DNA from: Strigamia acuminata
Taxonomy: Eukaryota; Arthropoda; Chilopoda; Geophilomorpha; Linotaeniidae
Assembly: GCA_949358305.1 (NCBI GenBank)
Contig: OX442318.1
Coordinates: 13,190,517 to 13,250,516, forward strand
Reading direction: 5' to 3'
DNA length: 60,000 nt
Shown here: positions 5,061 to 58,809 of the stretch, in pieces
Layout of the letters: each line of letters starts with the position of its first letter
Numbering within the stretch: position 1 is the first letter of the stretch
Translations under genes and position numbers: made by a program
Notes under the pieces: generated by a model
What the model saw: only the letters and a program-made list of their open reading frames with translations
Database searches by the model: none
Told to the model about the DNA's origin: nothing

Positions 5061-5347
5061 TTTTTGGATAATAAATCGTAATTTAAATGCAAAACATTAA
5101 ATTTTTCGACCATTTTGATTAAAATTGTACACAAATAAAAAAAAAACTCAAACATTTCAATAATTTTTATTAAAAATATCAAAAAACATGCAAACGCAAA
5201 AACAGACTAAGTTAAAACAAACGTTTCCAGTAAATTACGCTACAGTAAATTTATAAACATCGAAATATGAACGAAAAAACCAAGAGACTCGTGAACAAAT
5301 ATTGAAAACATTTTGAAAATCAATAAAACGCAAAAATATCAATAAAA

Positions 5348-16260: not shown

Positions 16261-16261
16261 C

Positions 16262-16500
16262 TTACCGTACCGCCCCGTTTAATAGCCCGGATTCATTAAG
16301 GCGCCGGCCAGTCATCAGCGATTTATAGAATTGGCACCAGTCCCGATTAAGCGCCGGCCTCCAAAAAAACGCCGACTTTTTGCGAAAAATTGGTGATTTT
16401 TGCAGAAAAATCACCATTCTTTGCCGATTTTTCGGTTATGTGCCGAGCCCAAATAAACGCCGGGCTTCAAATTAGCGCCGGGTGGGAAAGTGTGTGGAGT
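16262..16500. repeat. GCGCCGG-rich repeat, copy 2
   Basis: Longer version of the 11760-11900 repeat. TAAGCGCCGGC, AACGCCGACTT, AAACGCCGGGC and TTAGCGCCGGGTG occur in series. The rest of 16500-17500 has no gene; a segment near 16690-16730 and again 17390-17520 repeats the end of the LRR unit (GACAACTCGTTAG). Confidence 0.5.
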
Positions 16501-26696: not shown

Positions 26697-26973
26697 TTTC
26701 TAGTACGTAGCGAGGTATCTAGCGAAGCACCGAGCTCACGTGTGATGGCGGTGTTTCTCAAAATTACCACTAGACGGGATGTCGGATCATACTGTTCAAC
26801 TTTTTAAAAAATAATAAAATCGATGTTTATTTAGATATTTAAAGGAAATTAATGAAAGATAATGGAAAGAAAAAAGACCAAACTCAAGTATGTTTGATGA
26901 ATTATAATTATCTTTCGCGATTTTCGGATTAAACTTCTCAAATCTGTCGTTACGCGTCGCACGTTACGTCAAC

Positions 26974-36328: not shown

Positions 36329-39300
36329 GAAATGAATTTTCACAGACAAAGTCGCAAAAGACTCCGACAAGTAGCAAGAGATATACTCGATAGATTGAAA
36401 GAAGAAAGAAATGTCTTGCAAGTGCTTGAGCCAATGATTGACAAAAATAATGCTCTTGCATTTCGTATTTTTTGGGCTTTTCTCGTTGTACTCTGTATCC
36501 TCATCTATTGTTTCCAGATTTATGACCGCATTTCTTATTACATGCAAAGTCCAAAAGCCGTTGACGTCTATGAAGAAAAGATGGAAGAATTTCAGTTTCC
36601 TGATTCGCACGTGTGTGTACCATCAAATAAGTACATAGCAGCTTACTATGACTCAGCCGGCTTAGATCGGACGGAAATAGATTCTCTAAGCCCAATCGAC
36701 AAACTTATTCCCCGTGATGATGTTGATCTTACAAAATTGTGGAATTTAAACTACAGTTTCAAAGCCATTCATAATTTATTCACGATTGATGAACGACGCC
36801 AACGCAAAGTAAGTTTAATTGTTTTTTTTAACAAGAATAGTAAATCCATCGCAAAACTCTGCCTCCTTAGTGAACCATTGCACAGTGTTTTTAGTGACGG
36901 AAACGTTTTGGCACCCTATGCCGTTGCACTGCTCGATCGTGCTTACGGCCGATCTTAGCAAAGTCACCCAAGGGTGACCTGCGTCACTACCACACTTACC
37001 ACCCAATGGCCCTAAGGTCACCCTTCCTTTTGGAGTGGGATGACCCCGTACGGGAAAGGGGGAGCTGAGTGGTGTAGGGAGTGAGAAGAGCGCTGGGTCT
37101 CAATCGAGACAGACGTTGTCGCGCTCAACTCTAACCGTCGCTAACTCGTGGGTTGATTACTTAATTCGACTAACTCACTACCGCTTTGTCTCAAGCGGTT
37201 TACCCAAAGAAATGATTACACAGATATAAAAGGTAAAATATAATATAGATTTATTCTGTGGGACAATGTACAGATATATCTTATATATATATATGAAAGG
37301 TAGGTAAAAGGTAAATCGGAATGGGTGAAGGGAAATGGAAAGGTAAAGGTATGATGAAAGCTGGCTGGAATCGGCGAGGTCGTCTGTTGTCTCGGTCGTG
37401 TCCAAGATGGCGTCCTCGTTGTGGCAACGTGGTGTCGTCTTGGGCCGGCGTGGCAATATGGCGTCCTCGGCTCGTCTCTGGCTGGTCCTTCGGGCTCACG
37501 CTGGTCGGGCGCGAGTGAATGCTTAGTTAAAAGGCTTACTTCGGTCTGTTGTCTAGGTTTTTTGTGTGGTGTCCGGCGATCACACAGCGGCGGACTCTTC
37601 TGGCTCCCGGCGGTCACACAGCGGCGGGAACGCTCGTCGTGGTTTTACTGCAGTTTAGGCTTGTGCGACCGTTTGTCTGCACAACTCGCTAAACTGGAGT
37701 GGTTTTTACTATTTCTAGCTGGTGTGCTAAAATAGTGTGGTAATCTTATCTCGCAGGTTACTCTGCGGAGTTTGACACTGACCAAACGTACTCACGGTAA
37801 ATTGTCCTTTGTCCTTGGTCAATCCCAGTATATTTACTTGGGCCTGATCTTGTAGGACGACGGGTTTACGTGTGTTTCTCGTTTGATGGTTGTGTTGGTT
37901 CTGCCCGCTCAGTGCAAGGCACATTCCTTTGCACAAAGCGGGGTTGACAGGTGACCGGAATCACCCAATGGTGGGGTGGACGAGCCATCCCCACTCCCTC
38001 AGGGCAGACGCCTGTCCATTGACTAGATGTCAATGCACTGAGGGAAGGGAGACGCGCTTGCGGCTCCCCTTACACCCGAAACGAGGTCACGAGAGAAACT
38101 CTTCGTTGACCCCGGTCCAGTCGGGTCACAACACTTCCCCCTCCGAGCTCAGACCGTGGGGCTGAGCGATCACCTCTTTCCTGGGGGACCCGACACTGAG
38201 TCCGTCACCTGGGCGTAACTCACTCCAGGGACAGGCGGTTGAGTGCCGGGTGGCGCGGGTAGATCGCCTACTAGCGCCGAGGACCGATCACGGGGGTCCT
38301 CATGCTCCGTAATGAAACATAATGCATGGCCGTCAACTGGCTCATGCGGGGCACGCGTCCTCTCGTGTAACCAAACGCTCGGGATGTAGGCGGAGAAGCC
38401 GGTGTTCGTATGCCGGATGGCATTGGCTTCCGCTGGCGTCACTGGCGCACGGTGGGCTCTCAGCAACCTCTGGTGGAAGATGAGGTCTTTAGTCTTCCGG
38501 ATCTGGTTGTGAAGCCAGATGAAGACCGATTTGCCTTTGTCCCGCTGCGCGAGGATAAACCTCCTGGTCGCCGTCGTCATCGAAAGATGGGGAAACTCGT
38601 CGATGATTCGCCCATAATAGTCTGGTGGAGGCGGTGCCGGCTTTGGCTTCTGGGTGGCCGCGGGAATCACGGCTTGCGTCGTTGTCGCCGCTCGGGCCGG
38701 TGAGGTCCCGGGCGGTGTCGGCTTCGTTTGCTCGACGGACCTGACGGGTGGCGTTCGGCACAGCAAGCGCTTTGGTTTACCCGCCACTTCGAACAGGGCG
38801 GGTCCTTGCGGGGATATCTCCGCAGGCATCGGTGGCGGAATCGGAACTCCGCTCGTCGGCGAGATCACCATTTCTACATCCTCTGCCGATTCTTCCGTCT
38901 GGATGGTCAAGGCGCGCAGTTGTTGGGTAGGCGCCGCTGTCCAGGTGGCGGAGGTATAACGAAACGCCGTGCTTCGCAACTTGTACCCCTCAAATTCGGG
39001 GTTTACCACATCCCTGGTTAGCTCGTACCGAGTCAACACAGGGTCGGGCAGAATGGAGCTCCACTCTGCGAGGAGTGCACGGGGAACCTGTACACCCTCT
39101 CTGTCCACGACAGACCATGCGGCCATCGCCTGACGCCCTTCTCCGAAGAGTGCTGGGGTTAGCAGCTGCATCATGACCTTGGTCAATGATAGCTGTAGGC
39201 TGCGACGATTCACTGGATTCGATCGCTCCGAATCCGCAGTGAAGGCACACGAGAGCTTACTCATCATCGCCGTTGCCCATTCGATGAAATATCGCTGGGC

Positions 39301-42300: not shown

Positions 42301-45300
42301 TCGGTCGATTACATTTATTTTTAGTGCCGCCATCGACTCGTAATTTATTTTACTTCTTTCCTACGACCTTTCCGCCTTTTATGAACGGATTATCTCTTTT
42401 TGGTCGCAGGTTACGGATCGAGGCAGGTACGATATTTTTTGTTGTTTTTTGTGTCTGTACCTCCTCATTATTGTTTTCTTTTTTATCCGTGTTTTTTGTG
42501 TTTGTTTCAGGAGTTTCTCCTGTTTCCCCCCCGACCAAAATTGGATCCGGAACGGATTCAACTATCTCGTTTACCGGAGGTGAAGGGGCGTCGAAATACT
42601 CCTCGTTGTCACTTGGCGGTGCTTTTTCCGACTCGCCAGCGAACATATCGACGATTTGGCCGTCAGTTTTAGACTTGACTTGGCCTTTGGCCCACATTTC
42701 TTGCGGGAATTCCGGAATGTACGGAGTTAACTCTCGTACTTGTATCGACTTATGCTCGGTGTTGTCCTCGAGCTTGCGTAATTTATACGCGTTACCGCCA
42801 TGCTTGCCGATGATCACATACGGACCATCTCTCTTGTCGGCCAAGCTGGCGGTGATCCCTCTCGCTGCATTTGAGAGGGTGTGTGCATCTTTCCACACCA
42901 AATCATTGATCTCGAAATTCACGAATTTCCCACCGCTTTTATCTTGTAAAATGCGGTCGCGCATGTTAAAAATGTGCGCCATCATATGTTTGTATGTGTT
43001 CGAAATTGTTTGCTCCAATTTATATACATACTCATGTGGTTTCTCTGGGTCCACCACATTTACCGACTCTGCCACTCGTGGGTCCCAAGGCACTCGTAGC
43101 TCTCGGGCGAAGTTGAGGTAGGCCGGAGAAAAATCTCTCGTCCTCGAGACTGTTGTTCGTATGCTGAACGCGATCTCCCTCAAGTATTCATCCCACCTAT
43201 TGTGGATGTCAGTGAATATACTTAATGCATATTTAATGTCCCTGTTGAGTCGCTCAACGGGATTTGTTCTGGGATTGTAGGTCGAAGTATGTGACGCCAC
43301 AATCCCGAATTTCTCACAAAACTTACCCCAAATTTTCGAGATAAATTGGGGTCCGTTATCGGATATAATTTTACGTGGAAATCCGTAACGTAACGCCACG
43401 TCGTAGATACATTCAACGATTTTCTCTGCTGAAGGTCTGGCGACGGCGTACAACTCGGGCCAACGAGTTGCCACGTCCATTATAACGATAATGTACGCAT
43501 TTTTATTTCCCGTAACGGGTTTTGGGCCCATCACATCGACACTTAAACAATCAAAAGGCGCGTAAGGCCCTAAGAAAATAGTTTCGAATGGTGATTTACT
43601 CCTCGGCTTGCACGCTTGACATCGCTGACATTGGTGGACAAAAAGAGCAATATCTTTTTTCATCCCTGTCCAGTGAAAAAGCTGTGTAGCACGATAGAGT
43701 GTTCTGCTTACTCCCGCATGGCTCGCAAGCGGGTGCCCGTGTAACAACCACAGCACGCGACCGATTAAGGAAGCAGGTATTACTACCTTTACTGCGGTGT
43801 CCGATTCACTCAAGTCATCTTGGTGATTTGGGTGATGTTTCACTAAAAGGCCGTCATCCAATAGGTAATCTATGGATTCGTGTGCATAACGACGCTTCTG
43901 CCTTCTGGTTAGATTGGGCGGATATTTTCCTGTCAGTACGAATCTAGCTCTGTCCTGACATTTCTTGTCTAATTTTTGTTGCACAATTATTTCCTCCCTT
44001 GTCGGGGGACTGCTTTGCATCTGCTCGCCGACATGAGCGTGGAAGGCGCTTAGAAGCGGGTCATTTATTCTCCGCTCTAGCTTAAATTCCTTCCTTGCAT
44101 TTGGGTAATTGTCAGCAGCTGGTTGGTATAACCGCGTCCAAAATCCACAGAATTTTACATCTGCCGGAGACGCGGTGGGAATTTCATTCATCTTCCTTAA
44201 ATCCCAACGGTGACAACTCGTAGGGCAATAAATGATGCGGGAGTCATCCTCGCCATCATCGTCAGCGTCGATTGGATCTGACACTGGTGCCCGTGACAGA
44301 GCGTCAGCCACGACGTTATATTTGCCGGGCTTGTATTGAATGGTCAAGTCGCATGCCATCAGTTCTAACTGCCATCTGGCTAGTCGACCGGCTGGCTCTT
44401 TTAATTTCATCAGCCATTGTAACGCTTGATGATCTGTGTGGACCACAAATTTGGTATATTCGAGATAATCTCTGAATTTCCTTATGGCCCACACAACGGC
44501 CAAACACTCCAACTCGGTGGCATTGTAATTCTTTTCAGCGCCTTGGAGTTTGCGACTTATAAACATGCACGGCAGGTCTTGTTCGACTCCGTCGCGCACG
44601 TGTGTTTGGAGCAACGCCGCTCCTAACCCAACTCTGCTGGCGTCCGTGTGTAATATGAACGGCCGGTTTAAGTCGGGTAGAGGCATTACGCCGACTTCCG
44701 TCAGCATCCTCTTTATTGCATTAAATGCGATGTTGCACTCATTTGACCATACAAATTCGTTTTCATTCTTCAGGAGGTCGGTAACTGGGGCTGCCACTTC
44801 AGCTAGACCCGGTAGCAACCTGCCGAAGAAGTTTATCATTCCCATAAACCGTTGGACACCTTTAACGTCCTCGGGTGGTGGGAAACGATTAATCGCATCG
44901 ATTTTTTCGGGGCCAATAGCTAAACCATTGACTCCAATGCGATAACCCAGGAAGGCAAGCTCCTTTCGACAGAACTTGCTTTTGCCCGGATGCACGTGTA
45001 ACCCAGCTTTTGCCAGCCGGGTGAGCACTTGGTCGATGTGCTCAATGTGCTCTTCGAATGTTTTAGAGGCAATAACTATGTCATCTAGGTATGCCCACAC
45101 AAACTGATGCAGGATATCACCCAATACGCTTTCGATTAGTCTCTGAAAGGTACTGGGAGCATTCACTAAACCAAATGGCATGACGTTGAACATCAACCGT
45201 CCAATTGGCGAGTAAAATGCTGTTTTTAACTTATCCTCTGGCCTCATCTCAACTTGCCAGTATCCCTTCGACAGATCCATCGTCGTAACCCAAGAAAAGG

Positions 45301-48300
45301 GGCTAAGCTCTCTCAAAATGGATTCGATAGACGGCATCTGTATGGGATCTATTTCTGTCACCGCGTTTAATGGGCGGTAATCAATGCATAGGCGTGGGTC
45401 CGAGCCCGGGCGCATCACGAGCACAACTCGCGTCGCGTATTCTCCCTGGGCCTCGGAGACAATGCCACTGTCTAGCATTTCTTGGCACATTTTTTGCACT
45501 ATTTCACGTTTTTGCGGGTTCATTCCCTTATACGCAACTCGTATAGGTTTATTATCCGTCAATTTAATTTCGTGAATAGCCCTATTCGTTCGGCCCGGTT
45601 TTTTCGACAGGATCCCCTCATATTTAAGTAGGACCCTTCGTAGGGCTGCCGCTTCGTTTAATTCTAAAGCGGCGTCGGCGACAAGCGTTTCCACTACATT
45701 GTCCCGTTGCAATTCTGTTACGAATGCTTTAAAATCGTAATCTTGAACGAATTTCTTTAGGCCTTTCTCCCACTGTGTCTTGTCGGCCGCTTCTTTTACA
45801 AGAGCTGGTGGCACGACAATTGCGGGTCTTTCCTTATCATTTCTGATATAATTCCAAGATTTCGTTATTGGATTGGGTTGTATTTCCATTGACGCCATGA
45901 GGTCTAAGCCCAACAGAAAAATTCTGTCGCATGTGGGCAGGACCAGGAAAGGGTGCTGTTCTACTCCTCCGAGCCACTCCATGGTCAATAATATAACTCC
46001 TTTTGGACGCGCCATTCCGTTGGCGGTTTTTAGACGTATATTTTTATTAACGCCTTTTATCTTATCGGTGAGACCCAATGATGCTACTATGTCTTCGGAA
46101 ACGAACGAGCGATCTGCTCCCGAGTCTAGTAGTCCCATAATTTTTTCACGTTCTATTGTCATGGGCAACATACATAGGCGGTTGGTGTATTCGACCGCCA
46201 CGTTGCACATGAAAACACGAAATTCTTCTGTGTCTTCGACTACTTGAGGTAATTCTTCAAGCAGTAGGTTCGGTTCTTCCGCCTCAGCCTCAGCGTTTGC
46301 GGTAATTACCTGCAAAGCGTTGTTGGCCCTGTCTTGAATTTGGGCGTTAGCTATGTCACTACCCATTTCTTTGACTGGTGGCGGCTTATCGAACCCTTTG
46401 TTAAACCCCTTTTTCTTCATGAATGGCGCAGACGGTCGAGAAATTATTTCTTCGCCGCCTGCGCTGACTCGTTTTTTGACTCGTTTTTTGCCATGGCGAG
46501 TTTAATCTCTGCCATCTGCTTCATTATCGCGTCAAACTTAGCGTCTTCTTTCGCTGTTCTTGGGCACTCATTGGAGTAGTGGCCCGGTTGGTTACACTTG
46601 AAACAGCGAATATTTGATTTGTCTCTTGGGGCTTCAGTCGATTTTTTCTTTTCAGGGTCTGCTTTCGACGGTGGCGTGTAATTTTTCCGAAAATACTTCG
46701 GAATTCGACCGGCATTTGGTTTTAACCTGGCGCGAAATTCTTCTACCGCTCTATCTCGATGGATGAGATGTACTAGCGGTCCTTCCTCATCGCAACCCGT
46801 TGATAAGGTATCGCGATAGCTTCGTATTTCTTCGTCCGTCGAATAATCGTCTTTTTCTTCTTTTTCGTCTGATTTTCCGACATTTTGTTCGGCTTCCTCC
46901 CCCTCCTTGACCTCCTCCAGTGTCGCTTGCATGGCTGACGCTGTCGGTGCCTTTTTAGGGGCGGCCAAAGGGTTGGAAGGCAGCGGGGATGTCAGTTTAT
47001 TTTTTATTTGCAAACCAACGCTAGCTTCTGCCAGCTCCATTATACCGCTAAGATATTCAGTAGGGCGCATAATCTTATCTGTCGCCCCATATCTTTCCGC
47101 ACTCAACTTGAGACGTTTTGCGGTCGCTGCTTTCTCCGCTTCTGGTAAAGCGGAATAATATCTCTTCTCGATATCTATCGTGTTCTCGAACAGGAAGGCG
47201 CTCATCTCCTCGTAGCTACCTCCTGTCGGTGCCCTTTCTTCAAGTAGCACCCTTTGCGAGTATTCCGACAAACCGCCGAGAAAGAAAAGGTTGAATCCCG
47301 TGGCGTGAAATTCCATCGGGGCCTTTTCGAACAACAATCTGGCGCGAATGTCGTAATCCATTATGGTTTCACCAGGCATCTGGCGAAGACCTCGCATCTT
47401 TCGGCTCACCTCTTCGGGTGTCTCGCCGTAGCGCAGGTCGAATCTCATTAAAAAGTCGTCCCAATTGACGCCTTTCAATCCTTGGTACCACTCACGTGCC
47501 GAGCCTGTCATTAGCTCGACAATACCGTGGGTGAGCATGTCTCCTACGGTGGCTTTAGTGGCAGTCTTAATTCGAATTACTTCGTCAAGGAAGCGATCTC
47601 CCGCTTTCCATGACCCGTCGAAACGGTTCTGAATATAAAATTGCCACCTAATATTCCCGGTAACACTCATGGTGTCACGTCGGGAGACAGCGTATTTTTT
47701 CTTTACGCGGTCACCAGTGCTACGATTACGATCGTTTCGTTTGCTCAGATCAATTCCCTCGGCTTTTAACGAGCCGAGTAGGGCTCTTCCAAGCTCTCCC
47801 ATCGTATACTGCCGACCCGTCGAATCGGTAAACGCGCTTTGTCGGGGAAGGTCCTGAAACTCCTCCCGTCGGTGGTCGCTATTTTCCGATCGACGTCGTT
47901 TCTCTCTATCGCGCGGAGAGTTGGATCTCTTCCGGCGATTACTTGATTTTTCCTTTCGTCTGTCGTCGTTGGATGAGGGGTCGGAGCTGGGGTCGGGAGA
48001 CGGTGAGCGGCGTGGCGGGTTGCGCCGTGAAGAGTTTGACTCTTTCCGGCCCCTACGACGGTCGTCACGTTCCCTTTCTCTGCGTTCATCGCGTTCTCTT
48101 TCCCTTCGTCTTTCTCCGGAACCTCTCTCCGAATCGTGATGACTGGGTGCATTTGACTCCAGTCCATCTGACGACGAATCACTATTTCCGTAGTGATAAT
48201 ATTTCGGTCTTTCATCGCGTTTGCCTTCTTCTCGCGAAGAGGTGCGATCATGCGATTGTCTCCTTGACGACTCGTCGTCTTTAAGGATGGGCACTGGTTG

Positions 48301-51300
48301 TTGCCACTCAGTCCCTTGCGGATTATCTTGCTGTTGGCTTGTGAGAGCTTGCTCTTCATTTCGCCTAGCATTATTAGCGTTGATTAACCGCGTTATCGCA
48401 TTATTTGTGGCTGAATCGAGAGCTTGCATGCGGGGCCGAGTTTGTTGTTCTCTGGCCGACGCATCTCTCTTGCGCGGAGTAGCTGGTGTTGCCCTCTCCG
48501 GCTGGGGTTTGGGTTTGGCCTTCGGCGTGCGCTTTGGGTCTCCCTCTAGGCTCTCGTCGGACAGCTCGGATGAACTGACCTCTGGTTTGCGGACGGATTT
48601 CGGGTCATCTCGTCGCAATCTGGCCATAAATGCTCGCTCTGCTTCTTGTTGCGAGTGGAAAGCATATCGATGTGCTCTCAGGGCTCGGTCAACTATTTCT
48701 ACCTCCTCGGGAGTAGTCGGATTGGGCTGGGTTCTGCCGTACTCGAGAGCTTGCGCTTCTCTTTCCGCCAGCTTCCTCCGTCTCTCGCGAATGGCTTGTC
48801 GAGCCTCATTCTCTGCATCCGCTTCAAATTGAGCGGAATCAACCAATTGTTGAGCGTGTGCACCTTCAACAATGGTGATTTGTGGGGATACACTGTGCGC
48901 TTTTAAAGCTGCACGTACGATCTGTAACGTTTCGTACACGGTAATTTTCCCCGTCGGAAGGGTGTATCTCACTCCTTCCGCCTGTGCCAATTGCATCGCA
49001 TCAATCAAGGTGCCCGAGACGCTGTAAGGCTGGCTCGAAACACGCTTGACAGAGGATGAGTTGGACTTGTGTCCTTCGGACCTGACCGAAGCTGGGCGGC
49101 TTTGCGTAATTGGCGTGTTTAGTGCCGAATTAGCGGTCGTATTTGAGGCCGTCTTTTGTATCGGAGACGCTGCTTTCGGACTGCCCACCTCGGTGTCGTG
49201 CGTTAGACGAGGCGATTGGTTACGGGATAAAACCTCGTTTCCGCTCGTCTCGCCGTCACGGTTAGAACGCGGCAGTTTGGAGTGAGATTGTTCTTCACCC
49301 CGCTCTGTCTCGTCCAATCGCTGCCTCGTCTCGGTGCGAGACGGGTGCGATGCCTCGGATGCGCTTCTACGATCGGGTTTAGGCTTACGCCGTTTTTGCC
49401 TCGCTTCGTGCGCTGAGGCTTTGGGTAAGGGACCTCCAGATCGCAAGTGATAGTCGGCGCCTTTACGACTGCCGGCTCTCTTGTTTGCGTCGGAGTCGGA
49501 ATCTGTTACTCGGGTATTATCTGCCATTTCTTGCTTTGGGTATGATGTAATCACAGGTTAGAATCAGTTATTCGACTTGATCCCGGACAGGCCCCCACGT
49601 GTCGCGCTCAACTCTAACCGTCGCTAACTCGTGGGTTGATTACTTAATTCGACTAACTCACTACCGCTTTGTCTCAAGCGGTTTACCCAAAGAAATGATT
49701 ACACAGATATAAAAGGTAAAATATAATATAGATTTATTCTGTGGGACAATGTACAGATATATCTTATATATATATATGAAAGGTAGGTAAAAGGTAAATC
49801 GGAATGGGTGAAGGGAAATGGAAAGGTAAAGGTATGATGAAAGCTGGCTGGAATCGGCGAGGTCGTCTGTTGTCTCGGTCGTGTCCAAGATGGCGTCCTC
49901 GTTGTGGCAACGTGGTGTCGTCTTGGGCCGGCGTGGCAATATGGCGTCCTCGGCTCGTCTCTGGCTGGTCCTTCGGGCTCACGCTGGTCGGGCGCGAGTG
50001 AATGCTTAGTTAAAAGGCTTACTTCGGTCTGTTGTCTAGGTTTTTTGTGTGGTGTCCGGCGATCACACAGCGGCGGACTCTTCTGGCTCCCGGCGGTCAC
50101 ACAGCGGCGGGAACGCTCGTCGTGGTTTTACTGCAGTTTAGGCTTGTGCGACCGTTTGTCTGCACAACTCGCTAAACTGGAGTGGTTTTTACTATTTCTA
50201 GCTGGTGTGCTAAAATAGTGTGGTAATCTTATCTCGCAGGTTACTCTGCGGAGTTTGACACTGACCAAACGTACTCACGGTAAATTGTCCTTTGTCCTTG
50301 GTCAATCCCAGTATATTTACTTGGGCCTGATCTTGTAGGACGACGGGTTTACGTGTGTTTCTCGTTTGATGGTTGTGTTGGTTCTGCCCGCTCAGTGCAA
50401 GGCACATTCCTTTGCACAAAGCGGGGTTGACAGGTGACCGGAATCACCCAATGGTGGGGTGGACGAGCCATCCCCACTCCCTCAGGGCAGACGCCTGTCC
50501 ATTGACTAGATGTCAATGCACTGAGGGAAGGGAGACGCGCTTGCGGCTCCCCTTACACCCGAAACGAGGTCACGAGAGAAACTCTTCGTTGACCCCGGTC
50601 CAGTCGGGTCACAACAACGTGTGAAGTGAAGTCCTGAAGCCAGCAAGAGCAGTCGTGCTCTGTGCTGACTCTGCTCTCCTTGTAGCAGAGGAGAGCGCGA
50701 AAATCGGTCTGAAAACCGTTTGGAAGCGTGAAACGGAGTCGCACTTCACGTGCGAACAAAAGACGATGTTACGGAATTAACCAGACAACCGTAAATCGGA
50801 ATTAACCAGACTGCCGCACTATTCTAAGTGCTTATATGCAGTTAAACAACTTAAAAATATAAAACATTTAATTGAAAAGTGCAAAAACAACTTACAAATT
50901 GAATCCATACATGAGTAGGCTAGTGGCATGCAAGCCGCCATCTTGGAAGTTGAAATACACAAGTGACACACTCTAGTGTCGGAATTATACATTATAAAAA
51001 GGAAAACACTTGAAACTGAACTAAAAGTTACATATAGCATGATACCACATGCTAGATAAAGCAAACACAATAGAAAATACCGTAACTGACACGGTTAATC
51101 AATAAATAGTGATTAATATCGAAAATGCACTATACTAACATTAGAAATGAAATAAATATCGAAGTATCATCACTATATGATATCGGAAAAAGAAACTATC
51201 TTACATCGAGCATTAAATAGGTTTGGAACCAACACTCCTCACTATTCACCACTGTTCAGCTCAGTGATGAGATGTCGGATCCACCACAGCCTCCGCAAGC

Positions 51301-54300
51301 GGTTGCATGGCTGTACAGGTGAGTTCGGCAGAATAGTTATGTCCAACCGGCCACATTATTCATGGTGATCCCTCCCTGTGTGTGACGAGTCGGTTGCTGG
51401 TGTGGCACTGCCAACACATGGTTAGACGGGAAACTCAAACCCCTAGACAACGATTAAAGGCCAACAACCCAACAATCTGGAGTCCTTGTGTTATTTTACG
51501 TGAGTATGCATCCCACCCCATAATATCCCGTCCCCAGGCTACCGTGGCTAAGATCATACCATCACAAATAGTAAAAAAACGATTCTCTAACGTTACCATG
51601 ACACATTAATTTTTTTCGCAACTGCCTATTAAAATATATCGCTTATTTTGGGTCAATCTAGTTCACAAAATGGTGCAGATTAATTGATTTATCTGGAAAT
51701 TGAATACTTACTCTCTTCTGGCAATAGGTCCATGTTCCATTAAATATAACCATGACTGAAGAACTACAGCCGTGGGGTACTTGCACTAAATTTATAGGTG
51801 AGTTAAAAGAAAATCAATTCCTTCAGAAGGTAAAAAGTATTCCAATTATAGTTGGTGGAACTGTGAAGGGTTCTGAAATTTTTACAAGAATAGGATATGA
51901 CATAAGGGCAAATGAATTGAAACGAGGAACATCCTTCACACTGGTAAAGAAAACTTCGTGCAAAAATGTTAATGAATAGTAAGAGTCCTGATTAATTGTA
52001 CATTTTAGATATCAATGTCATTACCATTGGATTTTCAGTTGGGTTTTGTGCAGTCTGCAGCTACTTTTGCCAAACTAGGATTAAGTTTCAGACTGGTAAG
52101 ATTGCATTGTCTGGTAAGATTGCATTGTTCACCTGACGTAACAACCAGTGTGTACAATTTATCCAAATTTACTACTTTTCATATCATGCTGTCATTGTGA
52201 TTTAACCTGGCTCTGTTTACTAAAGAACATTAATTTTATTGAATTTTGTTTTAGCATCGATTTTTAAACACAAAAAATGACCCTTGTCTAGACCTTGAGG
52301 AGTACATGGAGTGTGGTAAAAAATGTGTGGAAACAATTTTAGACAAAAACCACTGCTGGTTTGAGCAAATCAATGTTTAACTGCAATACTCACGTTTTTA
52401 ATAATTTTATTTTCAATTAATAGGTTGCCTTATAGACCAAGATATTCCAAAGGATATATCCTTCCGCTTTGCAATAACTCTAAACAGACATTAGCAATGT
52501 ACAAGAAAAATAAAAACGATTTGGTTGGACCAAACCCCCGAGTGGACTGCGGGTGTACTAGGAGCTGTGAAACCAAAGAAGTTGATGTTCTATTTCGATT
52601 AGAACATAACAGCGATGGCACATCTTTAGGTTCTTGGCACTTACTCGACGATCATGTGGTCGTTATGAAAGAGCGTTTTATCTATGAATTGGGAAATCTC
52701 ATCTGTGATTTTGGTGGAAATCTTGGTCTTTGGTTGGGACTCTCTTCGCTCTCCTTACTAAACTTGATTTTGGTTGTTGGAAAACGTTGTGTTACAAAAC
52801 TCATTAGCCACAAAGATGTTGCAACAAGACAAATTGAAGCTTACGTTAAAGCCAACCAACCAACTCCGAACGGCCAAAAATCAAAAAAGCTATTTTCTGT
52901 CATTTATCTTTGCTTGTTTGGATTCAGTGTATTTATACTGCAACAAAAAATTCAATTGTATTTGGATAAACCCATCCAAAGAACAGTGGCTATAGAAGAT
53001 CCAGCTAATGTGACATATCCAAATATTATCATTTGTGCAGGACAACATAGGGGAAAAATAATAAAAGCTAAAGAAAAGTATTTAAAGCAACAAAAACTTG
53101 ACAACTCGAAATGCAATGTAGATTTATTGGATCTACTCGACTTTGATCACAATCGATTTTCAATACAAAACCTGTGGAATCTGACTTACATGCAACCATG
53201 CCCTCAGGGTATAATCAAATCATTCGTAAGTAAAATTTGGCGATGGTCACCATGGCAGGTTAATTTTTGGCACAACTCAAATTGCAAGGTGAACCCTGCA
53301 ATCATGACTATTCAGTTGGTACTGAATTTTTTATAACTGAATGGTCGTGATTGAAATGGTTGGAAGTTATAATTTGACCAATCAATTTGTGAAAGAAACA
53401 CGCATGTTTAGTAAATAAAAGTAACACACCGCTTTTACTACTGTCTGCTGCCCCGGCCCCCTGTTCACCACTAAAGATATGCCCAGTAAATACCATATGT
53501 CAGGGGTTCCCAAACTTTTTAGCATCGCGCCCCACTTTTTAAGCAAGGCGATCTTCTGCGCCTCACTTCATCTACCAGTGCATTAAATTTTTAAAAAATA
53601 TACTACTAAAAAAAAAAAGAAAAATTTTTATATAATTTTGCATAAAACTTTGTATAATTTTTTATATGATTTTATATAATTTTGCTTAAAAATTTAAAAA
53701 AGTTTGCAAAATAAGCTTGTTTTATTTAGGCATGTATAATGGGTGCGCCCCACCAATAATCAGCTCGCGCCTCACCAGTGAGGCCCGCCTCACCATTTGG
53801 GAAACCCTGCCATATGTTATTGTGAGCGTATTATAAGTGTCAAATATGACAGAAAGAATTTGGGGTCCAAACATAAATTTATACATAAATTCCATACAAA
53901 TAAAGATATTTTATTGCGTATTCCAAACATGAGGATTGCTGAAATCATTATTCTTTGTCATTTTCTGCTTTTTGGGAGCACATGAACTGTTTGCAACATT
54001 TCAAACTGAACTTATTATTATTATTATTATTATTTATTCTTTGAAGCCCGATGGAGTATAAAACGGGGAGGGAGTACAATGATTATTGGGTCGACAGAAT
54101 GTAATTTTTCAGGCGGCGATGAAAGTGTCTGCAGTGGAATTGGCATCTGGCGGCAGGGCAGTCGAAGACGAAAGCGCGGATCTCGAAAGGGAGGACGTTC
54201 CACATCGCTGTACAGTGGAAAGGAAAGGTGTTTGTTCTGTAATTGGAGACACGAGCGGTGACTTCAAACAGGTGGCGGCGAATGGTCCGGGTGGAAACGT

Positions 54301-55992
54301 CGGAATGGTAGAAGTCCGCAATCATGTGGGCGGGATGTCCGGGGTTACGAATGGCATCGGCCAAGGAGGATAGGTCATTTAAGCGCAGGAGATTGGACAG
54401 GGTGAGGATATTCAGGCGTTTACAGTAGGGGGTGAGGCGGGTTCCAGTGGGAATCTTATATGCAGTCTTTAGTAAACGGTAGTACGCGGTCTTGAGGGGA
54501 ATCTTGAAGCGACGGGAGGACGAGTTCCAGCTGAGGGAGGCATAGGAGAGGGTCGGGTGGATTTTCGACTTTATGTAGTTAGTGAGTTCCTGACGGGTTA
54601 GGATTTTCCGGAGATGTTTGATGATGTAGGAAGAACGGGTGAGGAAAACGGTAAGTTTTTGGATGTGAAGAGCGAAGGTAAGGTGGGAATCAAACACAAG
54701 GCCAAGAGCAGTGACGGAGTGGGGATGGGTAGGGGGCTCGGGCTTGGGGACGGCTGAAGGAGATAAGGCTGGTTTTGGATTGGTTGAGGGACATGTCATG
54801 GTTTGTGTACCATTTGGAGAGGAGGGACAAGTCTGCGGAGAAGAGGTCAGGAGGTGCGGGTTGGGCGGTGGATTGGCTGAAGAAATTGTCGTCAACATAG
54901 GAGCGGATGTTAGAAACAAGAGGGAGGTGGAGAACGGGACAGGACAGGGAGTCGTAGAACAAGGGACCGGCCACCGAGCCCTGAATGACACCACTTATAT
55001 CTTTTTAGAATCCATTTCCGGATAATCTTTTTTATGTGCGAACGTTTTCTAACTTCCCAAATCCACTTGGAACTTGCGTTAAACATTCCTTTGGTAATAA
55101 ATTCCTTTCTAATACACAGAGTAAAAAAGATAGATTTTGAATTAGGTTCAATAAAATATCAATTATATACCATGTTCCTTGACTGTATCATAGATATAGA
55201 CAATATGTGCAGACCGGATTATATACAAGTAAATATTGTAAAGGGTACTAATAGTGTAAATATCTAATCACAGAAATTTCAGGTTTATATAACTCCGATT
55301 GAAGATCCCAATTTTTCATTTGATTTCAATGTTGCTTGTTTACCAACACTGTCTACAACTATTCTGCTTAGAAGACTAAATGTATGCATTACATTTCTCC
55401 AATGGTACATATAGAATTCATTACACTTAAACCGTTTCAGAACCATCATCTAAACACTAAACGAAATCCATGCAATGCAAATTTAACTCAATATTACACA
55501 TGCAAACGCCAGTGCATCGACAATGAGATAAAAATCAAACAATTGTGCAGGTAATAGTAAAAGATGTTGGGCACGGTGAAACCATATTTTCTCTATTTAT
55601 TTTCTAGTATGCCCTTTGCTATTAAAAAAGACGTTGCCTTCTGCAACTCTTCAGCATCAGCCAAAGCAGTGCGGGCTTTATACTACGAAACATACGCAAA
55701 AATTGATGTTGAAAAACAATGCTTGTGCCCCCCACCTTGCAAACAACCATTCTACAAACTAAACGACTTTAATTATGCTTCTTTTATAGCAGGCACATCC
55801 ATCATAATAATTACTTTTATTACCAACAAAATAGAAACAATAACTGAAGAATTTAAATATTCTTTTGTTGCATTAGTTTCCGATGTGGGCAATATTTTTA
55901 GTTTGACCATTGGTCTTTCTGTGTTAACTGCAATACATTTCTTATACCATCCCGCACTTTTACTAGCAAAAAAAATAAATAACCGAAACTAA
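36329..55992 (+). CDS. Tandem (two-unit) DEG/ENaC channel protein, gene B, 11 coding exons
   Basis: Coding exons: 36332-36808, 51728-51797, 51852-51943, 52009-52095, 52255-52358, 52424-53225, 55009-55093, 55122-55228, 55283-55381, 55441-55550, 55608-55992; all junctions keep the frame and give 2418 nt, about 805 residues. Unit 1: helix 1 (residues 44-66), WGTCTKF near 175, TKNDPC near 250, CGCTRSC near 320, helix 2 with GLSS (362-396). After a 35-residue cytosolic linker, unit 2: helix 1 (431-452), PLGTCVKHSF near 565, TKRNPC near 645, CLCPPPC near 710, helix 2 with GLS (about 760-790). DEG/ENaC subunits form trimeric, usually sodium-selective channels; here one chain carries two subunits. 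Each ectodomain (about 280 residues) is shorter than usual and no N-terminal HG motif is seen. Exon 3 borders are the least certain. Confidence 0.82.
36332..36808 (+). CDS. Exon 1 of DEG/ENaC gene B (N-terminus and first membrane helix)
   Basis: Begins MNFHRQSRKRLRQVARDIL after the acceptor TTTAAATAG. Basic and charged cytosolic N-terminus, then helix ALAFRIFWAFLVVLCILIY (about residues 44-62), then the ectodomain start (YMQSPKAVDVYEEKMEEFQF) and a LWNLNYSFKAIHNLF segment, ending ERRQRK with donor AAA|GTAAGT. The near-identical exon at 58333-58809 shows recent gene duplication. Homology to the C copy continues about 60 bp into the intron and then breaks near 36872. Confidence 0.85.
37117..38133 (-). 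repeat. 3' LTR of the 13.5 kb gypsy element
   Basis: 1017 bp, same length as the 5' LTR, with TG...CA ends. The small open frames inside are repeated identically in both LTRs and are not likely genes. Confidence 0.95.
38134..38144 (-). other. Polypurine tract of the gypsy element
   Basis: Read on the minus strand, GGAGGGGGAAG directly abuts the 3' LTR. This is the primer site for plus-strand synthesis in LTR elements. ORF3 ends about 25 bp before it. Confidence 0.85.
38170..40959 (-). CDS. Gypsy element ORF3, 929 residues, unknown function, in the env position
   Basis: Open frame between Pol and the 3' LTR, where errantiviruses carry env. It has no signal peptide, membrane helix, furin site or cysteine pattern, so it does not look like an envelope. 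Visible parts: a helical N-terminal block (FRGALPDFYRRCFGEDADPW; WLHFERLRLG-like), a basic nuclear-localisation-type cluster near 205 (PRKRKRSKG), a charged region, a proline-rich linker near 430-490 (PPPPTQPTPPLPTPTLP), a second folded-looking block (about 520-690) and a C-terminal block (YYGRIIDEFPHLSMTTATRR). The second ATG (40935-40933) directly follows TTTCTCCATCCTTCCAG, a good splice acceptor, which suggests expression from a spliced RNA and MALRKTWG as the true start. Function unknown. Confidence 0.75.
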   Translation of the reverse strand: MFISPSFQMALRKTWGPLDPACITRGGIFRGALPDFYRRCFGEDADPWRLRILHSRCIARRWVRDCTLLDTFPEGMREGIATELARDDDPKSPIFHPGLSSQYTGNPAEEHVLHAWRAAETEEAREAIYQHYRQQLVDTATAVAERILQNEGMTADDIHLWFERLRLGESTPQWRPRMGILTSQAEMWQLHYLGILGPKSSYPRKRKRSKGAGDSQSRSPATTKKQRVAQNTTEGNEAGPSTSTVRDPSQYSRPRIFINRQIKDGKECKEVWMSGDEERVSRPSTSRRPLTHREQRKKDRKERYFARCEARGRPIPEPAYASKRAGRRGGSQSGERNVPAADTRDLREILTQMKRTKLTRFDPAMKHARKMGVVTDGKVTPHEVARWLADYINSRPRPDGMPTAIVQPSGSGQHLPALQVAMTGVQTTETPPPPTQPTPPLPTPTLPTKTQPPPNLPPPSLLNSSDPPDLPTDRSVPLPVGQSIAQECRANLTGIYRPSQPRSGSSALFFERRDEEARLAREAANPTISELSAFRFVMEDPRVSAPALRGVDQAQRYFIEWATAMMSKLSCAFTADSERSNPVNRRSLQLSLTKVMMQLLTPALFGEGRQAMAAWSVVDREGVQVPRALLAEWSSILPDPVLTRYELTRDVVNPEFEGYKLRSTAFRYTSATWTAAPTQQLRALTIQTEESAEDVEMVISPTSGVPIPPPMPAEISPQGPALFEVAGKPKRLLCRTPPVRSVEQTKPTPPGTSPARAATTTQAVIPAATQKPKPAPPPPDYYGRIIDEFPHLSMTTATRRFILAQRDKGKSVFIWLHNQIRKTKDLIFHQRLLRAHRAPVTPAEANAIRHTNTGFSAYIPSVWLHERTRAPHEPVDGHALCFITEHEDPRDRSSALVGDLPAPPGTQPPVPGVSYAQVTDSVSGPPGKR
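42094..42207. repeat. Three successive ACCCGT/ACGGGT hairpins in the Pol-ORF3 spacer
   Basis: Hairpins at about 42094-42119, 42136-42159 and 42181-42207 share the form CCCGTGC ... GCTACGGG or GCCGATAATTTTGCTACGGG with 10-15 nt loops and regular 43-45 bp spacing. They lie 130-250 bp after the Pol stop in transcription sense. The rest of the spacer (40960-42349) shows no gene. Confidence 0.6.
42350..46420 (-). CDS. Gypsy Pol polyprotein (protease, RT, RNase H, integrase)
   Basis: 1356 codons from the ATG; the frame is also open upstream back into Gag. Aspartic protease with DSGADRS near 99. RT with LCIDYRPLNAV, VMPFGLVNAPSTFQ and the catalytic YLDD near 444. RNase H with FILHTDAS near 592 and HTDHQAL. 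Integrase HHCC finger at about 893-935 (HGHPLASHAG ... CQRCQACK). DDE core with D near 964 (SVDVMGP), D near 1023 (SDNGPQF) and E near 1056 (NPVERLN). GPY/F-type module near 1200 (DGPYVI ... NAYKL). All catalytic residues are present. It is in the -1 frame relative to Gag, which fits programmed frameshifting. The C-terminal tail is acidic, then basic (RPKRDNPF). Confidence 0.96.
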   Translation of the reverse strand: MKKKGFNKGFDKPPPVKEMGSDIANAQIQDRANNALQVITANAEAEAEEPNLLLEELPQVVEDTEEFRVFMCNVAVEYTNRLCMLPMTIEREKIMGLLDSGADRSFVSEDIVASLGLTDKIKGVNKNIRLKTANGMARPKGVILLTMEWLGGVEQHPFLVLPTCDRIFLLGLDLMASMEIQPNPITKSWNYIRNDKERPAIVVPPALVKEAADKTQWEKGLKKFVQDYDFKAFVTELQRDNVVETLVADAALELNEAAALRRVLLKYEGILSKKPGRTNRAIHEIKLTDNKPIRVAYKGMNPQKREIVQKMCQEMLDSGIVSEAQGEYATRVVLVMRPGSDPRLCIDYRPLNAVTEIDPIQMPSIESILRELSPFSWVTTMDLSKGYWQVEMRPEDKLKTAFYSPIGRLMFNVMPFGLVNAPSTFQRLIESVLGDILHQFVWAYLDDIVIASKTFEEHIEHIDQVLTRLAKAGLHVHPGKSKFCRKELAFLGYRIGVNGLAIGPEKIDAINRFPPPEDVKGVQRFMGMINFFGRLLPGLAEVAAPVTDLLKNENEFVWSNECNIAFNAIKRMLTEVGVMPLPDLNRPFILHTDASRVGLGAALLQTHVRDGVEQDLPCMFISRKLQGAEKNYNATELECLAVVWAIRKFRDYLEYTKFVVHTDHQALQWLMKLKEPAGRLARWQLELMACDLTIQYKPGKYNVVADALSRAPVSDPIDADDDGEDDSRIIYCPTSCHRWDLRKMNEIPTASPADVKFCGFWTRLYQPAADNYPNARKEFKLERRINDPLLSAFHAHVGEQMQSSPPTREEIIVQQKLDKKCQDRARFVLTGKYPPNLTRRQKRRYAHESIDYLLDDGLLVKHHPNHQDDLSESDTAVKVVIPASLIGRVLWLLHGHPLASHAGVSRTLYRATQLFHWTGMKKDIALFVHQCQRCQACKPRSKSPFETIFLGPYAPFDCLSVDVMGPKPVTGNKNAYIIVIMDVATRWPELYAVARPSAEKIVECIYDVALRYGFPRKIISDNGPQFISKIWGKFCEKFGIVASHTSTYNPRTNPVERLNRDIKYALSIFTDIHNRWDEYLREIAFSIRTTVSRTRDFSPAYLNFARELRVPWDPRVAESVNVVDPEKPHEYVYKLEQTISNTYKHMMAHIFNMRDRILQDKSGGKFVNFEINDLVWKDAHTLSNAARGITASLADKRDGPYVIIGKHGGNAYKLRKLEDNTEHKSIQVRELTPYIPEFPQEMWAKGQVKSKTDGQIVDMFAGESEKAPPSDNEEYFDAPSPPVNEIVESVPDPILVGGETGETPETNTKNTDKKENNNEEVQTQKTTKNIVPASIRNLRPKRDNPFIKGGKVVGKK
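46444..49554 (-). CDS. Gypsy Gag protein, 1036 residues, with SR-like domain and zinc knuckle
   Basis: Large Gag for a gypsy element (many are 300-500 residues). The N-terminal half is disordered, with many S, R, P and charged residues. At about 465-560 lies an SR/RE-rich stretch (RRERERDERRERERD; SRRNPPRRSPSPDPSS; RKRSNSPRDREKRRR) like splicing-factor SR domains. The capsid-like retrotransposon Gag domain is at about 635-710 (NRFDGSWKAGDRFLDEV ... REWYQGLKG ... FLMRFDLRYGE). A single CCHC knuckle is near 983-997 (CFKCNQPGHYSNEC). MADNTRVTDS, ten codons in, is an alternative start. It ends AKNESKNESAQAAKK, overlapping the frameshift signal. Confidence 0.92.
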   Translation of the reverse strand: MITSYPKQEMADNTRVTDSDSDANKRAGSRKGADYHLRSGGPLPKASAHEARQKRRKPKPDRRSASEASHPSRTETRQRLDETERGEEQSHSKLPRSNRDGETSGNEVLSRNQSPRLTHDTEVGSPKAASPIQKTASNTTANSALNTPITQSRPASVRSEGHKSNSSSVKRVSSQPYSVSGTLIDAMQLAQAEGVRYTLPTGKITVYETLQIVRAALKAHSVSPQITIVEGAHAQQLVDSAQFEADAENEARQAIRERRRKLAEREAQALEYGRTQPNPTTPEEVEIVDRALRAHRYAFHSQQEAERAFMARLRRDDPKSVRKPEVSSSELSDESLEGDPKRTPKAKPKPQPERATPATPRKRDASAREQQTRPRMQALDSATNNAITRLINANNARRNEEQALTSQQQDNPQGTEWQQPVPILKDDESSRRQSHDRTSSREEGKRDERPKYYHYGNSDSSSDGLESNAPSHHDSERGSGERRRERERDERRERERDDRRRGRKESNSSRRNPPRRSPSPDPSSDPSSNDDRRKEKSSNRRKRSNSPRDREKRRRSENSDHRREEFQDLPRQSAFTDSTGRQYTMGELGRALLGSLKAEGIDLSKRNDRNRSTGDRVKKKYAVSRRDTMSVTGNIRWQFYIQNRFDGSWKAGDRFLDEVIRIKTATKATVGDMLTHGIVELMTGSAREWYQGLKGVNWDDFLMRFDLRYGETPEEVSRKMRGLRQMPGETIMDYDIRARLLFEKAPMEFHATGFNLFFLGGLSEYSQRVLLEERAPTGGSYEEMSAFLFENTIDIEKRYYSALPEAEKAATAKRLKLSAERYGATDKIMRPTEYLSGIMELAEASVGLQIKNKLTSPLPSNPLAAPKKAPTASAMQATLEEVKEGEEAEQNVGKSDEKEEKDDYSTDEEIRSYRDTLSTGCDEEGPLVHLIHRDRAVEEFRARLKPNAGRIPKYFRKNYTPPSKADPEKKKSTEAPRDKSNIRCFKCNQPGHYSNECPRTAKEDAKFDAIMKQMAEIKLAMAKNESKNESAQAAKK
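46471..46489 (-). promoter_or_regulatory. Two -1 ribosomal frameshift heptamers at the Gag/Pol junction
   Basis: On the minus strand the Gag frame reads GC[A AAA AAC] GAG TC[A AAA AAC] GAG. These are two A_AAA_AAC heptamers (46489-46483 and 46477-46471), both in the phase needed for slippage. The Pol frame is exactly -1 relative to Gag and is open from the first heptamer through the Pol ATG. The Gag stop is 22 codons or fewer downstream. Confidence 0.8.
49580..49597 (-). other. Primer binding site, proline-tRNA-like
   Basis: Two bases after the 5' LTR the minus strand reads TGGGGGCCTGTCCGGGAT. As I recall animal tRNA-Pro 3' ends, this is complementary except for two adjacent positions. The run begins with TGG, as required for pairing with the CCA end. 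Confidence 0.7.
49600..50616 (-). repeat. 5' LTR of the 13.5 kb gypsy element
   Basis: 1017 bp; offset of exactly 12,483 bp from the 3' LTR throughout the stretches checked. It should hold the promoter and polyadenylation signals. Confidence 0.95.
50621..51727. other. Rest of intron 1 of DEG/ENaC gene B
   Basis: No gene seen. The first 180 bp (with AGAGCAGTCGTGCTCTG and repeated GGAATTAACCAGAC) and the matching stretch left of the gypsy element (36872-37116, with GTCACCCAAGGGTGAC) do not align with gene copy C, so an older unidentified insertion probably hosted the gypsy element. The acceptor for exon 2 is CTGGCAATAG at 51727. Confidence 0.45.
52424..53225 (+). CDS. Fusion exon 6 of DEG/ENaC gene B (end of unit 1 plus start of unit 2)
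   Basis: One 802-nt exon without stop encodes, in order: the end of the cysteine-rich region (CGCTRSC), the pre-helix segment VVVMKERFIYELG, helix 2 of unit 1 (DFGGNLGLWLGLSSLSLL, with the GxS selectivity-filter pattern), a short basic linker (VKANQPTPNGQKSKK), helix 1 of unit 2 (LFSVIYLCLFGFSVFILQQ) and the start of the second ectodomain (YLDKPIQRTVAIED ... LWNLTY). The acceptor is TTAATAG, the donor TTC|GTAAGT. A comparable exon is at 20849-21499. This is the direct evidence that the two channel units sit in one chain. Confidence 0.88.
53501..53809. mobile_element. hAT-type MITE, 309 bp, 8-bp target duplication
   Basis: Ends CAGGGGTTCCCAAAC and (complement) CAGGGTTTCCCAAA, the usual hAT termini. 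CCATATGT is duplicated exactly at 53493-53500 and 53810-53817. It lies in intron 6 of DEG/ENaC gene B. No transposase. Confidence 0.92.
54012..54995 (-). mobile_element. Non-LTR retrotransposon fragment, second copy
   Basis: Same family as 22690-23850. Read on the minus strand it starts within the RT (near the GVIQGSVAGPLF region), has SYVDDN in one frame and the C-terminal region in another (frameshift near 54710), ends NYILSTQ at 54083, and has an (AAT)n tail at 54012-54040. The 5' truncation point is about 15 bp from the splice acceptor of exon 7 of the channel gene. Confidence 0.88.
55608..55992 (+). CDS. Last exon of DEG/ENaC gene B
   Basis: After the acceptor TATTTTCTAG the exon reads SMPFAIKKDVAFCNSS, then CLCPPPCKQPFY (family cysteine motif), a pre-helix segment and the final helix VSDVGNIFSLTIGLSVLTAI with the GLS filter motif. 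It ends ...AKKINNRN with a short cytosolic tail. The stop is followed by a 3' UTR; an AATAAAA is seen near 56253. Confidence 0.85.
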
Positions 55993-58026: not shown

Positions 58027-58328
58027 GTATTGGGAAAAAACGTGTACAAATAAACATCCAACAGTTTCTTCTTGACAATGTTTTTATGTTTGTGTTAACT
58101 GACAAAGTGCAACACACGCCATCTGGTACTCACTTGTCAGAAGATATTGATTTGTTGCGTTTGTTTATTATGTCGTTTAACAATTTCGACACATCTATTC
58201 ACTCAGCATGTGAGCAACATTTTTGTTTTTAATTGGAAATGAATTTCACTAAGCTCGCACAAGACTTTTACGGCCACTGCGTTTGGGGATGAGCATTTGA
58301 GTACAACATATATTTTTGTTTTTTAATA

Positions 58329-58809
58329 GGAAATGAACTTTCATAAACAATGTCGCAAAAGACTCCGACAAAAAGCAAGAGATATACTCAATGCATTGGA
58401 GGAAGAAAGAAATGTCTTGCAACTGTTTGAGCCAATGATTGACAAAAATAATGCTCTTGCATTTCGTATTTTTTGGGCTTTTCTCGTTGTAGTCTGTATT
58501 CTCATCTATTGCTTCCAAATTTCTGACCGTATTTCTTATTACATGCAAAGTCCGAAAGCCGTTGACGTCTATGAAGAAAAGATGGAAGAATTTCAGTTTC
58601 CTGATTCGCACGTATGTGTACCAACAAATAAATATATAGTGGATTACTATAATTCGTCTAGCTTAGCACCGACGGAAATAGATTCCCTAAGCCCAATCGA
58701 CAAACTTATACCTCGTGATGATGTGGATCTCACTAAATTGTGGAATTTAAACTACAGTTTCAAAGCCATTCATAATTTATTCACGGTTGATGAACGACGC
58801 CAACGCAAA
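58329..58809 (+). CDS. DEG/ENaC gene C, exon 1 (gene continues beyond the window)
   Basis: Coding from the ATG at 58333 (MNFHKQCRKRLRQKARDIL) after the acceptor TTTTAATAG, to donor AAA|GTAAGT near 58809. It has the same length and layout as exon 1 of gene B: cytosolic N-terminus, helix ALAFRIFWAFLVVVCILIY, ectodomain start, LWNLNYSFKAIHNLF. Most differences are conservative and the frame is open, so this is probably a live duplicate. No further exon is recognisable before the window ends. If intron 1 resembles that of gene B without the gypsy element, the next exons should lie shortly beyond the right edge. Confidence 0.85.

Follow-up and report, generated by a model that had tools for sequence, protein, structure and literature searches.

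Gene 1 of the DNA analysed here most probably encodes two DEG/ENaC channel subunits in a single protein chain, a natural head-to-tail fusion of two units. Judged from the sequence, the probability of this reading is roughly 0.88. The window (the whole stretch of DNA that was analysed) is 60,000 nucleotides long, and positions without a contig name refer to it. The gene spans 36332-55992 on the plus strand and was modeled as 11 exons by reading the forward frames together with splice signals. The spliced coding sequence of 2394 nt specifies 797 amino acids plus a stop codon, with no internal stops, and all ten introns (10/10) have GT-AG ends. The original prediction of one gene with 11 coding exons in a single frame is borne out by the splice phases, the 797-aa frame and the intron ends. 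It had put the length at about 805 codons; the single open frame was confirmed and the length was corrected to 797 aa.

Gene 1 contains two complete DEG/ENaC units

Exon 1 (36332-36808) carries the N-terminus, helix 1 and the first part of the ectodomain of unit 1 (FPDSHVC, LWNL) and is matched by the Pfam ASC profile. The next four exons were placed by the splice model: exon 2 (51728-51797, with GTCTKF), exon 3 (51852-51943), exon 4 (52009-52095) and exon 5 (52255-52358, with TKNDPC, ending in phase 2). Exon 6 (52424-53225) is the fused exon and encodes the CxCxxxC motif and helix 2 (GLS) of unit 1, a linker, and then helix 1 of unit 2 with the beginning of its ectodomain. Exon 7 (55009-55093, GTCVKH), exon 8 (55146-55228), exon 9 (55283-55381) and exon 10 (55441-55550, TKRNPC) are again from the splice model. 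Exon 11 (55608-55992) contains CLCPPPC, helix 2 of unit 2 (GLS) and the stop codon, with another Pfam ASC match. All 11 exons are on the plus strand. Exons 1 to 5 end in phases 0, 1, 0, 0 and 2, and exons 6 to 10 end in phases 0, 1, 0, 0 and 2; both units have the same intron positions. A phase series repeated in the second half of the gene is the trace expected from a fusion of tandem duplicates. The weakest splice site of the model is the exon 5 donor GTTTGA at 52359 (phase 2), which yields an open frame and agrees with intron 10. An AG resembling an acceptor (36328) is found 3 nt ahead of the ATG, and a short stretch upstream of gene 3 exon 1 (58219-58266) is similar to the start of gene 1 exon 1. 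An additional 5' exon is possible.

The family landmarks occur twice and in order (unit 1/unit 2): helix 1, GTCTKF/GTCVKH, TKNDPC/TKRNPC, CGCTRSC/CLCPPPC, and then DFGGNLGLWLGLS/DVGNIFSLTIGLS. The cysteine landmarks GxC, PC...CxxxC and CxCxxxC are present in both units, and the GxS tract of helix 2 reads GLS in both. Four hydrophobic segments are found in the chain at approximately residues 39-68, 376-397, 430-451 and 757-789. The Pfam ASC profile (PF00858) matches the whole chain in three stretches with E=1.9e-30 (106.7 bits vs a cut-off of 23.6), and the open frames containing exons 1, 6 and 11 alone are each above the curated cut-off (E=2.2e-8, 1.7e-9 and 6.9e-12, respectively). Two full sets of landmarks, as predicted, are therefore found in the motifs, the four helices and the ASC matches. 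The expectation that GTCxxF would appear twice was only partly correct: GTC is present twice, with the final F in unit 1 only and an H at the same place in unit 2. Units 1 and 2 share 21% aa sequence identity (E=1e-9). Among solved structures the best match to unit 1 is BRTNaC1 (E=1.5e-16) and the best match to unit 2 is PDPNaC1 (E=1.3e-11); further matches of the chain are to FMRFamide-gated channels and, at a weak level, to ASICs. A His-Gly motif before helix 1 is typical of ENaC and ASIC channels; it is not required by the ASC profile and hence is not defining. By eye, the motif is absent from the 38 residues before unit 1 helix 1 and from the linker, which has NG. Fold prediction of exon 6 alone without relatives gave a pLDDT of 41. 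At the level of the predicted protein it is confirmed that gene 1 encodes two whole, diverged DEG/ENaC subunits in one frame.

The fused exon and the linker between the units

The linker between unit 1 helix 2 and unit 2 helix 1 is 36 residues long and lies inside exon 6. This exon has no stop codon, and no Met is found from GxS to unit 2 helix 1. The first Met past GxS is located 100 residues beyond the start of unit 2 helix 1. The stop triplet frequency in nearby introns is 0.065. The chance of an open exon of 267 codons is p ~1e-8, and that of the 36-codon linker alone being open is p 0.09. These figures bear on the alternative that the locus consists of two ordinary head-to-tail genes, with the fused exon read through and with separate transcripts or internal starts and ends producing two subunits. 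Such an arrangement appears very improbable: exon 6 is open far beyond chance length, and neither gene 1 nor its relative in the window (gene 2, see below) has a Met from GxS to helix 1. On the other side, many paralogs do carry a Met at helix 1 or within the linker, as two separate genes would lead one to expect. In the 30 best of the 144 places found in the genome with the gene 1 fused exon (see below), 26 have at least one Met in the interval from GxS to the FP/YP motif, so that the missing-start argument is valid for genes 1 and 2 and not for every paralog. The sequence of those 26 paralogs would be compatible with an internal start. A further point against two separate genes is that the two helices are spanned in one frame in 142 of the 144 places although the linker varies from 35 to 42 residues across the 30 examined loci.

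Selection on the fused exon was estimated from 24 of the 30 best loci, grouped in five small paralog clusters. The loci left out were L012 and L018 (stop), L015 (TAA), L027 and L028 (copies of L026) and L031. Outside the linker the dN/dS ratio is 0.41 (0.35-0.49). For the linker alone it is 0.68 in the same 24 loci, a weak signal with a bootstrap range of 0.46-1.06; by paralog cluster the linker values are 0.43-0.79 (this set also leaves out L035 and L037). The linker thus appears to be under loose constraint. Since its dN/dS signal is weak, the case for translation of the linker rests more on the open frame and the kept phase. Loose constraint would also suit a different fate of the protein, in which the chain is made whole and then cut in the cytosolic linker to give separate units in a fixed 1:1 supply. 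The linker is the least constrained part and looks rich in basic residues to the eye; set against this, a 1:1 supply suits a trimer no better than a linked pair does, and we consider cleavage quite unlikely. An uncut two-unit chain remains the preferred reading. Support for the original claim of a single frame through both subunits comes from the splice phases, from an inter-unit stretch free of stops and Met in genes 1 and 2, from the paralog in the window and from the fused exons of the genome (at least 284).

Genes 2 and 3 in the window

A tblastn search of the window with the gene 1 units located two further loci, both on the plus strand: 20849-22582 (gene 2) and 58333-58809 (gene 3, first exon). 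The fused exon of gene 2 (20849-21499) has 217 open codons and contains unit 1 helix 2 (GMS), the linker and unit 2 helix 1, with no Met after GMS. An exon with GICTAF follows at 21520-21643; its splice sites were taken from the sequence and its phases are 0 and 1, like those of gene 1 exon 7. The last exon (22318-22582, start uncertain) encodes CHCSASC, unit 2 helix 2 (GVS) and a stop (ASC E=1.9e-5). No exon with the thumb cysteines (CxxxC) was found in the enumerated exon chains before the last exon, and no first exons of gene 2 were found within the window. Gene 2 may be decaying, as the missing thumb exon and first exons would suggest.

The alignment of the gene 2 fused exon with exon 6 of gene 1 is uninterrupted from helix 2 across the linker to helix 1 (28% identity, E=1e-19). 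The alignment score is 190, compared to a maximum of 51 among 500 shuffles. For helix 1, the score of unit 2 against unit 2 (gene 1/gene 2) is 86, that between units 1 and 2 of gene 1 is 59, and that of gene 1 unit 1 against gene 2 unit 2 is 41. For helix 2, gene 1 against gene 2 gives 107 (unit 1/unit 1) and 68 (unit 2/unit 2). The scores within one gene are 57 (gene 1) and 77 (gene 2), and the cross scores are 50 (gene 1 unit 1/gene 2 unit 2) and 80 (gene 1 unit 2/gene 2 unit 1). Helix 2 is therefore not clean for unit 2, with pairs at 80 and 77 exceeding the unit 2/unit 2 score of 68. The pairing of the unit 2 helix 1 sequences and the continuous alignment indicate that the fusion predates the split between genes 1 and 2.

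Gene 3 exon 1 is 88% identical to gene 1 exon 1, and the two exons have a dN/dS of 0.24. The next matches on the gene 3 strand are outside the window (C6:13255978-13258383). They include the fused exon L012 (C6:13255978-13256775), which follows gene 3 exon 1 and has one TGA.

Family size and layout in the genome

The host assembly (237.5 Mb, 157 contigs) was searched with the fused exons of both genes. The gene 1 fused exon gave 144 scored places out of 1397 first-look candidates; the gene 2 fused exon gave 150 out of 963, 149 of them besides gene 2 itself. The stretch from GxS to helix 1 was spanned in one frame in all 150 places of the gene 2 query (150/150), as it was in 142/144 of the gene 1 query. 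Spanning places without a stop number 133 (gene 1 query) and 148 (gene 2 query). Merging the two sets gave at least 284 distinct fused exons, at least 274 of them without a stop. Both figures are lower bounds, and a single-frame match search is biased towards in-frame pairs. Most of the fused exons are on contigs C6 (128), C1 (93) and C8 (31). The family therefore has hundreds of members, beyond what the original prediction reported, which would make it very large for DEG/ENaC channels. The number and the divergence of the copies make an assembly artefact unlikely.

The full exon order (first exon of unit 1, fused exon, last exon of unit 2) was found in 76 of the best 80 places, i.e., those scoring at least 129 bits among the 142 spanning places of the gene 1 query. 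Among the other four, two have no last exon, one has no exon 1 and one has neither. The median span is 5.8 kb. Flanking exons had to be on the same strand, at most 20 kb upstream or 12 kb downstream, and not separated from the place by another fused exon of the set. They were taken from the best 83 of 150 matches for exon 1 and the best 84 of 150 for the last exon. One paralog (L071, 6.9 kb, 42-63% identity to gene 1) contains the exon series 1 to 11, with exon 4 not separately matched. In L069 and L070 (6.9 kb read each) the sequence ends before the last exons. Two places from the Pfam list (L072 and L073) each have a fused exon behind an exon-1-like exon. L073, which has a longer linker, was chosen since its 300-aa open frame is the size of a fused exon. 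L072 (C1:7744800-7751800) is a distant two-unit gene with GLA instead of GxS in unit 1.

A chain with more than two units was not encountered among the at least 284 fused exons. Neighbouring fused exons are separated by 4491 bases or more, compared to a distance from fused exon to last exon of ~2.4 kb in gene 1 and <1 kb in L071, and more than two units per chain was rejected on this basis among the matches listed. Two sets of copies with equal scores were observed. Three fused exons on two contigs (L026, L027 and L028 at C3:11014302, C6:2863754 and C6:2938079) have equal scores and an identical linker and appear to result from recent dispersal or segmental duplication. Three others on contig C4 (3023087, 3036452 and 3049801) have equal scores at ~13.35-kb spacing and were apparently multiplied in tandem very recently.

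Single-unit genes of the same family are found in the same genome. Four of them on contig C4 (L002, L005, L007 and L008) share with the two-unit genes a helix-1 exon followed by a terminal exon with helix 2. They differ in that the stop comes directly after helix 2 (4/4), whereas the two-unit genes are open through the linker. A Met precedes helix 1 in L005, L007 and L008; none is found in the frame of L002. L007 and L008 (C4:7368298-7376012) form a tight tandem array with first exons 2.2-2.7 kb apart, and their helix 2 has GFC at the usual GxS position. Such an array speaks for two separate head-to-tail genes, and is also where a fusion would start. The absence of stops from at least 274 of the at least 284 fused exons argues against separate genes and for the two-unit chain.

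Gate residues and assembly of the chain

The pore of PDPNaC1 is narrow at Asp372 and Gly375, which correspond to Asp433 and Gly436 of cASIC1a (PMC12714832). Across the 30 best places (of 144), the Asp is present in unit 1 in 30/30 and is followed by Gly at Asp+3 in 30/30, with one Ser at Asp+2. The unit 2 motif was found in 15 of the 30 loci, as the loci end 1.5 kb past the match. In these 15 the residue at Asp+3 is Asn (15/15), and the acidic residue is Asp in 12 and Glu in 3. Gene 2 has DIGG in unit 1 and NIGS in unit 2. The two units are thus consistently different at the gate and not equivalent, a point that the original prediction did not raise. The GxS tract is kept in unit 1 (GLS, 30/30) and in unit 2 (GLS or GIS, 15/15 where the last exon was found). 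A tree was built from 54 helix-2 segments (~110 residues each, and with support after rerooting that is not to be leaned on); in it, 32 unit 1 and 17 unit 2 segments fall in separate groups. Outside both groups are the other five segments, two from single-unit genes and three from last exons of unknown layout (L001, L003 and L004). The separate groups and the gate difference fit one old fusion with specialisation afterwards. The most likely origin would be an old fusion of two tandem single-unit genes, followed by multiplication.

The N- and C-terminal ends of a DEG/ENaC subunit are both cytosolic, so the linker poses no topology problem. The predicted chain would consist of unit 1, a cytosolic linker of ~36 residues and unit 2, giving four helices with both ends inside. 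The whole chain would be translated, and both ectodomains would be outside. Tentatively, and with somewhat less than even confidence, we propose that one chain occupies two adjacent positions in a trimer, with a single-unit subunit or a unit from another chain in the third. The coexistence of single-unit and two-unit genes means that a third subunit for the trimer is available. Every pore would then be a heteromer, to which unit 1 gives the gate glycine and unit 2 an asparagine.

The main rival assembly is a six-unit complex of three chains, in which the pore is formed by the unit 1 parts only and the unit 2 parts form a second pore or a non-conducting collar. The gate residues would suit it, with Asp and the glycine at Asp+3 present in unit 1 of all 30 loci and Asn at that place in every unit 2 where the motif was found. 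We nevertheless regard it as rather unlikely, because unit 2 has kept its GxS tract, and unit 2 of gene 1 has all landmark cysteines and helices, as would be expected of a pore-lining unit. Placement of the linked pair at two positions of one trimer is the assembly we favor. For the family as a whole, the size and the clusters suggest a role as sensory receptors. The odds are about even that this lineage has rebuilt much of its DEG/ENaC family on linked pairs in hundreds of genes, forming fixed-order heterotrimers with a third unit or six-unit double channels, with a preset heteromer per gene and probably a very large sensory repertoire.

Comparison with known channels

In published descriptions, a DEG/ENaC channel is built from three single subunits with two helices each, and a fixed order of subunits in a heteromer is hard to test. 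In two-pore-domain potassium channels and four-domain voltage-gated channels, pore subunits have been linked by evolution and the units have then become non-equivalent. The two units of a two-pore-domain potassium channel divide the four-fold pore; two DEG/ENaC units, in contrast, do not divide a trimer. Because a naturally linked pair does not fit evenly into a three-subunit pore, it opens stoichiometry and the order of neighbours to direct testing, and the single-unit genes of the same genome provide internal controls. Trimeric channels could then also evolve by subunit fusion, as potassium and sodium channels did.

The centipede channels BRTNaC1 (PDB 8YMR and others) and PDPNaC1 (9JF7) have a thumb motif PC...EEYxxC like that of the gene 1 units, and the pore sequence of unit 1 (D-x-GG-x-x-GL-x-x-G-x-S) is similar to theirs. 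BRTNaC1 and PDPNaC1 are single-unit proteins, whereas gene 1 has two units per chain with no gate glycine in unit 2. PDPNaC1 is a homotrimer (PMC12714832). Linked subunits of this family have been engineered. In two papers, concatemers of two to four linked ASIC1a subunits and trimers of ASIC2a/3 work with 8- and 19-residue linkers (PMC4529235; PMC10329638). A head-to-tail ASIC1a dimer is functional in oocytes in the first of these, which argues for tetramers (PMC4529235), and the 19-residue linkers are those of the ASIC2a/3 trimers (PMC10329638). Gene 1 resembles the engineered chains in its head-to-tail subunits and cytosolic joint. It differs from them in that the concatemers are man-made from vertebrate subunits, whereas gene 1 is natural, its units are 21% identical and its layout is found in hundreds of places. 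Its linker of 36 residues is also longer than the 8 and 19 residues of the engineered chains.

The original prediction also stated that no natural DEG/ENaC concatemer is known to have been described, and none was found in the open-access literature covered. This included the centipede channels, engineered concatemers, family phylogenies, a Drosophila family paper and a mite genome paper. Scans of a viral and a genome contig collection with the fused exon gave no relative, and an animal gene would be expected in neither. DEG/ENaC is itself a known family. The new part would be the architecture and its scale, with absence from the literature covered taken as an indication and not as proof.

Mobile elements and other features of the window

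An LTR retrotransposon (37113-50616, minus strand) is found in intron 1 of gene 1, which is 14.9 kb long because of it. The LTRs (37113-38133 and 49597-50616) are 99.9% identical over 1021 nt. The ORFs of the element, also on the minus strand, are gag (46444-49557), pol (42350-46501) and an additional 929-aa ORF (38170-40959) that has no match in Pfam. The near-identity of the LTRs indicates a recent insertion, and the gene 3 fused exon has a stop, so one may ask whether gene 1 is a decaying relic whose expression was ended by the element. This seems unlikely, given a gene 1 model without internal stop or frameshift and a family with at least 274 open fused exons. Relic status of one copy would in any case leave the two-unit architecture untouched. 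Gene 1 as a pseudogene or a chance open frame was rejected on the stop statistics, the exon 1 dN/dS and the absence of any disabling change in the model.

The other features of the window are all on the minus strand. Intron 6 of gene 1 contains an ORF (54083-54994) with no Pfam match above the cut-off and a related copy near 22859; by eye it looks like the tail of a non-LTR element. Two copies of a 200-300-aa ORF with ~2.64-kb spacing are found at 3708-7385, and the copy at 3708-4598 has no Pfam match. An Hsp70-family gene in pieces is located at 8828-10821 (Pfam HSP70 E=1.6e-42, 9416-10654). A gene in tandem copies occupies 13333-20391, in which one ORF (17503-18696) has a sub-threshold leucine-rich-repeat match (E=0.022). 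An ORF of 650 aa with no Pfam match is found at 24747-26699, and an IFT57 exon (E=4.5e-39) is present at 28241-28660.
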